A stretch of 44,896 bases of DNA. It comes from a virus. Shown here piece after piece: positions 9,172-12,771 of this stretch. The notes under the pieces were generated by a model. That model had not been told where the DNA came from. It was given only the letters and a program-made list of their open reading frames with translations, and did not search any database. The stretch is from positions 1 to 44,896 of the IMG/VR virus record IMGVR_UViG_3300018469_000002. One strand, given 5' to 3'. The position numbers and the translations under genes are program-made. Each line of letters starts with the position of its first letter. The first letter of the stretch is position 1.

Positions 9172-9660
9172 ATGGTAGCACCACAGTGGACAGTCCTATC
9201 AGAAGCTGGTAGGAATACACGTAGTCAACTGTTACTCAATGTAGTATGCACTTGCGGTACTACACGTATCATCACAGAGGATAGTTATAAACGCGGTTTA
9301 TCTAAATCCTGTGGTTGCTACCGGATAACATCCAGACATTCAAGAGCCAGTGATGGTAAACCATCACCAACTTATTATTCTTGGCAGTCTATGAAAACAC
9401 GCTGCTTAAACCCTAATGCTGCGGACTACCCACACTATGGAGGGCGTGGTATTACTGTAGACCCTACTTGGATGTACTTCCCTAACTTCCTAAAAGATAT
9501 GGGTGTACGTCCAGCAGGTTGTACTCTGGATAGAGTGGACGTTAACAAGGGTTACTCACCAGATAATTGTAGGTGGGCAACAAATATAGAGCAACGTGCT
9601 AACCAACGGCCGCACAAACGGAGCGTTAAGAATGTACCAGATATTAATTTGGGACGTTGA
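9172..9660 (+). CDS. HNH homing endonuclease upstream of DNA polymerase, 162 aa
   Basis: The N-terminus has two CxC pairs (C26-x-C28, C47-x-C49) that look like a zinc knuckle. After it comes TYYSWQSMKTRCLNP, GGRGI and LDRVDVNKGYSPDNCRWAT at 119-137, the pattern of phage HNH proteins in which this Arg/Asp/Asn-rich block carries the active site. The last 29 bases overlap the start of the DNA polymerase gene. Its base composition is more AT-rich than its neighbours, a sign of recent arrival. It is preceded directly by a phage-type promoter. It is a free-standing homing nuclease at the edge of a target gene. Confidence 0.85.
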   Translation: MVAPQWTVLSEAGRNTRSQLLLNVVCTCGTTRIITEDSYKRGLSKSCGCYRITSRHSRASDGKPSPTYYSWQSMKTRCLNPNAADYPHYGGRGITVDPTWMYFPNFLKDMGVRPAGCTLDRVDVNKGYSPDNCRWATNIEQRANQRPHKRSVKNVPDINLGR

Positions 9661-10543
9661 GACAGAAAATAATCCTTGGTATGGGCAAGTAGCATCCCCA
9701 TTCAACCCGGATAACTACATAGTTGCATCTGGTTATCGACTGGACACAGTGCATGACGATGGTACTGTGTCAGTGGGTTCCGTTGACTACGTGTACTACA
9801 ACTCCAAGGAGGAGTTTCTAAGCAAGCCGATATCCGATTGGCTGCCCATTACACCTGCCACCACTATAATCGTAGCGCATAATGCGACTTACGAGATTAA
9901 GTGGGCCTTGCAGCATGCTAAGCCACTACTAGAAGACTTCCTGAAACGTGGTGGGCGCATCGCCTGTACCGCTTTGGGTGAGTACTTAGTATCGCACCAG
10001 CAGACGCTGTACCCTTCTCTGGATGAGACAGCAGTGCTGTATGGTGGTGACCACAAGGTCGACGGTGTTAAGATTCTGTGGGAGCAGGGGCACTTGACCT
10101 CGCAGATTGACAAGGACTTGTTGATTCGTTATCTGGCAGGCACCAAGGCAACCACCGGGCAGAGTGGCGACATCGAGAACACCGCCCTGTGCTTCTACGG
10201 GCAACAGGCTAAGCTGGCAGAGATGGGCATGACAGCCATGTTCTGGGAGAGGTGTGATGCACTACTGGCGTTTGCGTACTGTGAGTTCTTCGGTCTGTAC
10301 GTAGACCAAGAGGTAGCCCAGCGCAACCTTGCCGAGCAGGAGGCAGAGATTCTCAGCCTTCGTGAGCAGTTGCATGAATTGTTGCCGAAGGACTTGCCAG
10401 AAGAGGTAGAGTTCAACTGGGGCAGCGACTACCACATGTCAGCTCTGGTTTATGGTGGGCCGGTGAAGTACCGCCACAAGGTGCCGTACGAAGATGGGCG
10501 TAAAGTTAAGAGGGATTACTATGTCTTTGGAGACAGCACTTGA
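9632..10543 (+). CDS. DNA polymerase, N-terminal part (3'-5' exonuclease), 303 aa
   Basis: This is the first part of a split family A DNA polymerase. I chose ATG 9632, because MYQILIWDVETENNPW begins at the Exo I motif (DxE). The Exo II segment is VAHNATYEIKW, and ENTALCFYG with the following WERCDALLAFAYCE area fits the Exo III region. It reads with polymerase-like sequence up to KVKRDYYVFGD and then meets a stop two codons later, where an HNH gene begins. The remaining polymerase continues in a different frame from 10963. No polymerase motif A, B or C is in this part. The two parts may work as separate polypeptides that associate. Confidence 0.85.
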   Translation: MYQILIWDVETENNPWYGQVASPFNPDNYIVASGYRLDTVHDDGTVSVGSVDYVYYNSKEEFLSKPISDWLPITPATTIIVAHNATYEIKWALQHAKPLLEDFLKRGGRIACTALGEYLVSHQQTLYPSLDETAVLYGGDHKVDGVKILWEQGHLTSQIDKDLLIRYLAGTKATTGQSGDIENTALCFYGQQAKLAEMGMTAMFWERCDALLAFAYCEFFGLYVDQEVAQRNLAEQEAEILSLREQLHELLPKDLPEEVEFNWGSDYHMSALVYGGPVKYRHKVPYEDGRKVKRDYYVFGDST

Positions 10544-10991
10544 ATTAAAAGATGGACGGCTGTATTGGAAGGAAGGGAATTACAAGGGCAGGGCTGTGGG
10601 TAGGCCACGAGGTGATGGTTATTACATCTTTCGATACCAAAAGAAAACTTGGTTATACCATAGGGTACTATTCTTCATGGTGCACGGATACTGGCCTAAG
10701 CAGGTTGACCACATTGATGGTAATCCTAGCAACAACACCATAGATAATCTACGGGAGTCAGATGCTAGACGAAACAACCAAAACCTAGCCGCCCCGCGTA
10801 GTCATAATAGATGTTCCTCCTTGGGTGTTTCCATACGCACAAGACAAGGGCGGTTGCGATACCGTGCCAAGATTGTAGTTGATGGAAAGGCTATTGAGCT
10901 TGGGGAATACAAAACCGAAGAAGAAGCAAGTGCTTCCTACCAACAAGCAAAGGTAAAATACCATGTACCGGTTGGAGATAGACTCACATAA
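10521..10991 (+). CDS. HNH-AP2 homing endonuclease splitting the DNA polymerase, 156 aa
   Basis: The product has an HNH core, YHRVLFFMVHGYWPKQVDHIDG (H47, D63-H64) with N71-N72 and NNQNL at 85-89. An AP2-like DNA-binding domain follows at about 101-145 (GVSIRTRQGRLRYRAKI and EEEASASYQQAK). ATG 10521 lies inside the last polymerase codons of part one, and the stop lies in the first codons of part two, so the ORF nearly fills the insert. It is AT-richer than its surroundings. The frame also extends upstream to 10494, but that stretch is polymerase sequence. No room is left for an ordinary group I intron core outside the ORF. Confidence 0.85.
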   Translation: MSLETALELKDGRLYWKEGNYKGRAVGRPRGDGYYIFRYQKKTWLYHRVLFFMVHGYWPKQVDHIDGNPSNNTIDNLRESDARRNNQNLAAPRSHNRCSSLGVSIRTRQGRLRYRAKIVVDGKAIELGEYKTEEEASASYQQAKVKYHVPVGDRLT

Positions 10992-12771
10992 CCCCCCAAC
11001 AGCGCAGCAGATAGCTGAACTGGAGGTACTCTATGGCCCTGTATCCCGCTATAAAAGTGGGAAGAACAAGGGGCAAATTAAAATTCACAGGCTAGGCACT
11101 GATGAAGATGCTAAAAAGTGGGAAGATACGTCGGTACTCCTTCCGGGACTGGTCAATGTATCAGGACTCCCAGCGGGGATTCGTGAGAAGTACGTTGGCA
11201 GACGGGCAGAGTACTGCGGAAAGCGTGTCCTTTGTGATGGCATTACGCCGGTATACTCGACGAGCACGGAAGCCCTCAAAGGACTCAAGAACTTTGTGCC
11301 AGAGGTTGGCCTTATGGTTAAGCTCGCTTCTCTCGAGAAAGACGTAAGTACATACTATTGGAGGGCGGAATATGCCACGGAAGAACATGCAAGGGCGGCT
11401 AGCTTACCAGAAGCAGTGGTCGGTGGAGAACAAGGAGAAGGTTGCCCTACACAACAGGAAGAAACACATAAAGAGGATGTACGGGCTGAGCTGGGACGAT
11501 TGGCAGGGGATGTTAATAGCGTCCAACAACCAGTGCCAAGTATGCCGGAAAGCTGTGCAGGAGAAACCGGGAATTCTGTTGGGGATGAGGGCAGTGCCAG
11601 ACCATTGCCATGCAACGGGAAAAGTTCGGGGTGTGTTGTGTCACACCTGCAACAAGGTTCTGGGGATGGCGGGAGACAGTCTGGAGGGGCTAGGACGCTT
11701 CGTCCAATACCTAAAGTCGGTGTAAATGGGTGTACCAAGGTCAAGGGCATGCTGCAATATGTAGGCCCTGACAGTATCGTGCACCACAGCCTGAACGTGA
11801 CAGCGACTGTGACCACCCGGCTAAGTTCGAGCAACCCGAACCTACAGAACCTCCCACGTGATGGGACGTCTAAGGTTAAGGAGATGTTCACCAGCCGCTT
11901 CGGTGCGGATGGTAAGATTATTGAGGTGGACTACTCAGCGCTGGAAGTTGTAATGCTGTGCGCTATGACGAAAGACAAGGACTTGCTGGCGCTGCTGCAA
12001 GCAGATACCGACATGCACTGTTACCGTCTGGCGTATCGTTTAGGTGAGCCGTACGAGGATGTGTTCAAGAAGTGTCACGACGAGACACACCCAGAGCACA
12101 AGGCGTACAAGCAGATGCGTACGGACATTAAGCCGTTGTCATTCGCAGACCAGTACGGTGCAACAGCGGCCGGCCTATCGTTCAACACGGGGTGTACTCT
12201 GGAGTTCGCACAGGAATTCCAAGCGAACGAAGCGCGTATGTTCCCAATCTCACGTGGGTTCCGTCAGGTAATTGTTGATGAGGTTGAACGTACCGGGGCA
12301 TTACCGGGTAGCATTCACCGTGAAATGGCTGATGACGGTACGTGGCGTGTGTATCGCAGAGGGTACTACCGTGCCCCAAGCAGTACTTGCTACAGCTTCC
12401 GTCAGCATGAGCAGTGGCGTGACGGTAAAGTGGTAATGGATTACAAGCCAACTCAGATGGCGAACTACCCATTCCAAGGTGAGGCCGGTTTCATGATGAG
12501 CACCAGTATGGGGCGTATCTGTCGCTGGTTAATCAGTAAGGACTGGTTCGACAATAAAGTGTGCTTAATCAATAACGTACACGATGCGGCGTACCTCGAT
12601 GCAGCAGACGCAGAGGTAGGGCGTGAGGCAGCAATGGGTGTGAAAGCCATCATGGAAGATGCCCCACGTTATATGACTTCGGTATGGCCGGAGTATGATA
12701 TGGCTGATGTACCATTCCCGGCCGCGGCTGAGATGGGCAGTAGCATGTACAATAAATCACATTTGGAGTAA
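10963..12771 (+). CDS. DNA polymerase, C-terminal part (family A polymerase), 602 aa with inserted loop
   Basis: This part carries the polymerase motifs: motif A VDYSALEVVMLC (D323), motif B DIKPLSFADQYGATAAG and motif C INNVHDAAYLD (D541), with TTRLSSSNPNLQNLPR before motif A. ATG 10963 has AAAGG about ten bases upstream and lies inside the end of the HNH gene; polymerase-like sequence starts near residue 9 (HNPPTAQQ). Residues about 137-255 do not look like polymerase: they are the out-of-frame reading of an endonuclease VII-like ORF (11372-11725), low in hydrophobic residues and rich in Gly, Glu, Ser and Gln. The frame resumes as KVKGMLQYVG. It may be a tolerated loop. Confidence 0.85.
   Translation: MYRLEIDSHNPPTAQQIAELEVLYGPVSRYKSGKNKGQIKIHRLGTDEDAKKWEDTSVLLPGLVNVSGLPAGIREKYVGRRAEYCGKRVLCDGITPVYSTSTEALKGLKNFVPEVGLMVKLASLEKDVSTYYWRAEYATEEHARAASLPEAVVGGEQGEGCPTQQEETHKEDVRAELGRLAGDVNSVQQPVPSMPESCAGETGNSVGDEGSARPLPCNGKSSGCVVSHLQQGSGDGGRQSGGARTLRPIPKVGVNGCTKVKGMLQYVGPDSIVHHSLNVTATVTTRLSSSNPNLQNLPRDGTSKVKEMFTSRFGADGKIIEVDYSALEVVMLCAMTKDKDLLALLQADTDMHCYRLAYRLGEPYEDVFKKCHDETHPEHKAYKQMRTDIKPLSFADQYGATAAGLSFNTGCTLEFAQEFQANEARMFPISRGFRQVIVDEVERTGALPGSIHREMADDGTWRVYRRGYYRAPSSTCYSFRQHEQWRDGKVVMDYKPTQMANYPFQGEAGFMMSTSMGRICRWLISKDWFDNKVCLINNVHDAAYLDAADAEVGREAAMGVKAIMEDAPRYMTSVWPEYDMADVPFPAAAEMGSSMYNKSHLE
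11372..11725 (+). CDS. Endonuclease VII-like homing nuclease nested in DNA polymerase, 117 aa
   Basis: The fold is that of recombination endonuclease VII: C55-QV-C58, PDHCHATGKVRG (D77, H78, H80) and CHTCNK (C90, C93, N94), giving a zinc site plus a beta-beta-alpha-metal active site. A GGAGGG site eight bases before the ATG is provided by polymerase coding sequence (WRAEY). The basic N-terminus may contact DNA. It lies wholly inside the polymerase gene, one base out of frame, and the host frame has no stop across it. Free-standing members of this family act as homing nucleases in phages, so I infer that role, distinct from the resolvase at 15482. Confidence 0.8.
   Translation: MPRKNMQGRLAYQKQWSVENKEKVALHNRKKHIKRMYGLSWDDWQGMLIASNNQCQVCRKAVQEKPGILLGMRAVPDHCHATGKVRGVLCHTCNKVLGMAGDSLEGLGRFVQYLKSV

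Follow-up and report, generated by a model that had tools for sequence, protein, structure and literature searches.

An endonuclease VII gene nested out of frame within a viral family A DNA polymerase gene

Nuclease genes nested in phage genes and the polymerase locus

The ShiLan domain is a hidden HNH endonuclease in the mycobacteriophage DNA methylase gp65 (Arsenault et al. 2025, PMC11855218). In this system, the insert is filled by an out-of-frame nuclease ORF, the host gene reads through it in register without a stop, signatures of introns and inteins are lacking, and the host-frame segment is predicted to be a loop; in addition, its authors report no detectable Shine-Dalgarno site (PMC11855218). 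We recovered the hidden ORF anew in the ShiLan record. Another phage nuclease, I-PfoP3I of the cyanophage Pf-WMP3, resides in a group I intron that interrupts a T7-like DNA polymerase gene (PMC3428280). The endonuclease VII (EndoVII) genes of phages (PF02945; T4 gp49 fold), on the other hand, are normally free-standing and located between other genes.

The stretch of DNA analysed here (termed the window) is a virus record of 44,896 bases, in which an EndoVII gene lies out of frame within the ORF of a family A DNA polymerase (Table 1). The closest description of this arrangement is that of ShiLan, of which an EndoVII gene in a polymerase is a variant. In both systems, the insert is occupied by a nuclease ORF in a different frame, the host frame is open and in register, and neither an intron nor an intein is apparent. 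They differ in the nuclease, which is of the HNH type in ShiLan and of the EndoVII type in the window, so that the latter falls outside the ShiLan family proper but appears to work like it. They also differ in the host, a non-essential methylase compared to a replicative polymerase; in the offset of the host frame, +1 compared to +2; and in the Shine-Dalgarno site, undetectable in ShiLan, whereas the window has GGAGGG six bases before the ATG. As a candidate homing nuclease located within a T7-like DNA polymerase gene, the window nuclease resembles I-PfoP3I; however, I-PfoP3I rides a group I intron, whereas the window shows no intron signature and its host frame is open. Compared to free-standing phage EndoVII genes, the window gene has the same domain with the same metal-binding and active-site motifs, but is nested in a host gene and has a distinct third-position composition. 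A search of the open-licence literature found no prior report of EndoVII in such nesting.

The DNA polymerases closest to that of the window belong to phiKMV-like phages of Pectobacterium and Dickeya (Corkvirinae). The C-terminal polymerase ORF encodes 602 residues, which are 74-81% identical to the MA2 polymerase on both sides of the insert (tblastn), and the nearest intact relative is 89% identical over the palm and fingers. The N-terminal exonuclease part is a separate ORF, divided from the C-terminal part by an HNH gene that serves as a contrast case to the EndoVII insert: its two other frames contain 7 and 17 stops, and it merely divides the polymerase. Klebsiella phage KMI6 shows a comparable HNH split in this polymerase family, and in both phages the HNH gene overlaps the polymerase ends. 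These HNH splits break the frame and leave two polymerase ORFs, whereas the EndoVII insert leaves the frame intact. A further HNH-like gene (phrog_374) is found at 9172-9660 of the window, the 3′ end of which overlaps the start of the N-terminal polymerase part. The phages PPWS1 (L002:2951-3652) and BF25/12 (L003:2957-3628) carry frame-breaking HNH inserts near polymerase residue 468-470, a site other than that of the EndoVII insert; the PPWS1 insert is annotated as intron-related, and Rfam at the gathering threshold returned no intron match for it.

Table 1. Features of the polymerase locus in the window and nested EndoVII genes in other phage sequences
Feature	Location	Strand	Evidence or remark
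Polymerase N-terminal (exonuclease) part, separate ORF	9632..10543	+	phrog_9556, E 4e-115; 68% identity to MA2 residues 1-289
HNH endonuclease gene splitting the polymerase into two ORFs	10494..10991	+	PF13392 (HNH_3); overlaps both polymerase ORFs
Family A DNA polymerase, C-terminal part (thumb, palm, fingers) including insert	10963..12771	+	PF00476; phrog_2573, phrog_17
Shine-Dalgarno-like GGAGGG of the nuclease	11360..11365	+	native polymerase codons; 6 bases before ATG
EndoVII gene, 117 aa, ATG to TAA, out of frame within the polymerase ORF	11372..11725	+	PF02945, E 7e-19
Inserted segment, 351 bases / 117 codons	11374..11724	+	polymerase-frame residues 138-254 of C-terminal part; Gly/Glu/Ser-rich spacer
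EndoVII in TerL, between ATPase and nuclease domains	L036		uninterrupted homologue L124 shows the insert
EndoVII in helicase-methylase	L178		same frame offset as window
EndoVII in TerL, inside intein	L104/L105/L111, L176, L106		PF14890
EndoVII in helicase, one shared site	L052/L112 to L118		
Hidden EndoVII in helicase, Squiddly gp64	L122:2403-2933		annotated only as DNA helicase
Hidden EndoVII in helicase, Malisha gp71	L203:1201-1731		annotated only as DNA helicase

The nested nuclease and its junctions

The window nuclease scores 67.9 bits against PF02945 in a profile search, compared to a curated cut-off of 23.6, and possesses the residues C55/C58, D77-H78-C79-H80 and C90/C93-N94, in agreement with the intact nested ORF and motifs that the first-pass annotation of this DNA had read from the sequence. 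The residues of the zinc and active-site motifs CxxC, DHxH and CxxCN are invariant in an alignment of 12 relatives. The predicted model (pLDDT 90.7) structurally matches Hpy99I and T4 EndoVII; the match to the T4 EndoVII fold (1en7) has a Foldseek probability of 1.00, but an E-value of only 1e-2 and a TM-score of 0.48. The cousins of the window nuclease at L009 and L011 are free-standing and sit between structural genes.

The alignment of the MA2 polymerase stops at base 11373 and restarts at 11737 (tblastn), and inspection by eye shows that the native sequence is back at 11725-11730, with AATGGG in place of GATGGG. The insert, which replaces about 2-3 native codons, is almost exactly the nuclease ORF: the ATG uses the last two bases of a native polymerase Tyr codon, and the last base of the TAA comes from a native Asn/Asp codon. 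Intact relatives read TYYLRTEY-N-x-DG at this point, compared to TYYWRAEY[117 codons]NGCTKVKGM in the window. The insert is absent from every intact relative examined (MA2, PhiM1, L089, L090 and others), and alignment to these uninterrupted phiKMV-like polymerases, by which the first-pass annotation had suggested placing it, gives the boundaries listed in Table 1. The site is a length-variable loop at the thumb/palm junction, running from the last thumb residues to the first palm strand. This loop is present in phiKMV-like polymerases and missing in Bst Pol I, and is thus naturally variable. The site had initially been put just before polymerase motif A, from which it is in fact about 60 residues upstream. 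The window is the only sequence in which the polymerase insert was seen: no second polymerase with the insert appeared among the best 30 matches listed from a tblastn search of 50,697 phages with a chimeric polymerase-EndoVII-polymerase sequence, nor was a second carrier found in palm/fingers scans of IMG/VR or of genome contigs, or in a distant DNA search of plasmids.

The GGAGGG site noted in the first-pass annotation consists of native polymerase codons. PhiM1 carries CTAAGGACGGAG, the sequence of the relatives, at the same position, and a Leu-to-Trp and a Thr-to-Ala change bring the window site nearer to the Shine-Dalgarno consensus than that of PhiM1. These two changes may have been selected for Shine-Dalgarno likeness.

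Open host frames and codon composition

The polymerase frame is offset by +2 (i.e. -1) relative to the nuclease frame and contains no stops over the insert, compared to eight stops in the third frame. Since the length of an ORF is always divisible by three, the resumption of the polymerase frame in register, which had been correctly described in the first-pass annotation, is automatic when exactly an ORF is inserted; the informative point is the lack of stops. When the nuclease codons were redrawn from the codon usage of this phage, 6.6-6.7 polymerase-frame stops were expected, and zero stops occurred in 1.1e-4 to 1.5e-4 of draws. When synonymous codons were permuted within the nuclease gene itself, zero stops occurred in 6% of permutations (P 0.06), because the third positions of this gene are only 10% T and 48% G. 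The stop-free frame thus stands as originally observed, but the chance first attached to it, well under one in fifty, is too mild for phage codon usage and about right only with the T-poor, G-rich third positions of the nuclease.

The third-position composition of the nuclease is itself the anomaly. Its 48% G corresponds to a z of +5.2 after allowing for G+C, and the highest value among 140 free-standing IMG/VR EndoVII genes is 37%. The helicase-methylase case, the only other nested one sharing the offset of the window, has 47%. At this offset, the third position of the nuclease is the first position of the host codon, at which a T can give rise to a stop. The insert is likewise open in one antisense frame (11355-11891), so that low local stop density, a reservation already made in the first-pass annotation, does contribute. 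In the AlphaFold model of the polymerase, the spacer has a pLDDT of 22-34; because the adjoining thumb and native flanks are also low, disorder of the spacer is not established. Hydrophobic residues in the host frame of the window are depleted in the same direction as in the helicase group described below, without reaching significance (P 0.09).

A frame survey covered 155 distinct EndoVII loci. As its seeds were relatives of the window nuclease first and relatives of the nested nucleases next, its counts do not represent unbiased prevalence. It revealed further EndoVII genes nested out of frame in an open host frame (Table 1). The TerL cases L105 and L176 show the intein domain PF14890, unlike the polymerase ORF, where a search of the host frame found no Hint splicing domain and DNA_pol_A is the sole domain over the 602 residues. 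At L105:1925-4456, L176:363-2792 and L106:3-1151, the out-of-frame EndoVII ORF lies between the halves of the splicing domain, and the TerL intein frame is open. Three further loci (L060, L066 and L068) appeared nested on the basis of frame alone and were not counted, no host family being nameable. In the TerL of Stenotrophomonas phage SOVA965 (L121:457-3360), the ATPase domain contains a large in-frame insert resembling an ordinary intein, with a weak LAGLIDADG_3 match under the curated cut-off.

The helicase arrangement comprises nine sequences, including those of the Gordonia phages Squiddly and Malisha. In every pair, the third positions of the nuclease are the most substituted, and identity is 46-82% for the nuclease, compared to 22-51% for the host frame; the nuclease is the conserved frame. 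No member has a stop in the host frame, compared to 3-15 in the third frame. At this offset, 0.8-3.8 stops are expected in each sequence and about 17 in the eight diverged sequences together; single cases at the +1 offset are individually unsurprising (P up to 0.43). Moreover, seven of the eight members have fewer hydrophobic residues in the host frame than synonymous redraws predict (P below 0.03), in tests that use the codon usage of the host flanks and on related sequences, such that the P values are not to be multiplied. Both intein cases tested show no such depletion, and there the segment would be excised. The helicase group thus keeps both the openness and the hydrophilicity of the host frame over large divergence.

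Probable overprinting and the alternative explanations

The best explanation, which we consider likely, is that a mobile EndoVII gene has been overprinted on a tolerant polymerase loop and that both frames are read. The gene lies inserted in the length-variable thumb/palm loop, and because the insert consists of little more than the nuclease ORF, its length is divisible by three and the polymerase frame continues in register. Translation of the nuclease would begin within the polymerase mRNA, at the Shine-Dalgarno site that polymerase codons provide, and its synonymous positions would have been shaped to keep the polymerase frame free of stops. Straight reading of this frame would add a spacer some 117 residues long to the tolerant loop of a polymerase that presumably continues to function, and the nuclease may act in homing. 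Overprinting is favored because of the exact junctions, the lack of an intron or intein signature, the frame-specific third-position bias and the recurrence in other phage genes. Of the original proposal of a nuclease overprinted on a disordered polymerase loop, the overprinting is therefore retained as the best reading, and the loop may be disordered.

The open frame itself could be a matter of chance if the donor gene was poor in stops and rich in G, and the insertion recent or harmful, with the frame not maintained. The within-gene permutation, the open antisense frame and the unsurprising single cases at the +1 offset elsewhere are all in keeping with chance, but none of the 140 free-standing EndoVII genes has such a codon composition, which the one other nested case at the same offset does share, and in the helicase group the frame has stayed open despite deep divergence; we thus regard chance as unlikely. 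It is very unlikely that an unrecognized self-splicing intron carries the nuclease, in which case the polymerase would be translated from a spliced mRNA and its open frame would be incidental. Group I introns with nucleases are known in T7-like phage DNA polymerase genes, as in Pf-WMP3 (PMC3428280), and the relatives PPWS1 and BF25/12 bear their frame-breaking HNH inserts at another polymerase site. However, Rfam searches of the insert for a group I or II intron core gave no relevant match at either gathering or relaxed thresholds, the ORF fills the entire 351-base insert and leaves no space for a catalytic core, and splicing predicts neither an open host frame nor the bias toward G at third positions.

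The polymerase might instead be made as further split pieces, for example by re-initiation downstream of the nuclease, leaving the spacer unused. The HNH split of this same polymerase and its counterpart in KMI6 lend this some plausibility, but split pieces need no open insert frame, as the stops in the HNH gene illustrate, and we hold such a route to be extremely improbable. Translational bypass of the 351 bases was rejected as needless, the polymerase frame being open.

Beyond the probable overprinting of the polymerase, we lean towards a more general proposal, in which phage EndoVII genes are recurrent insertion elements that need no intron or intein, or sit inside one. They would persist in essential genes by evolving codons through which the host frame remains open and hydrophilic, and each would thereby give an enzyme of replication or packaging, in this case a DNA polymerase, a newly overprinted segment. 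If true, this would add to introns and inteins a third means by which a selfish nuclease, being readable in two frames, can reside inside an essential gene and leave it functional, as well as a repeated natural experiment in which new protein segments are born by overprinting. The cultured Gordonia phages that share the arrangement make the idea testable now. Altogether, annotated helicase, terminase and polymerase genes may conceal nuclease genes that are overlooked by standard annotation.
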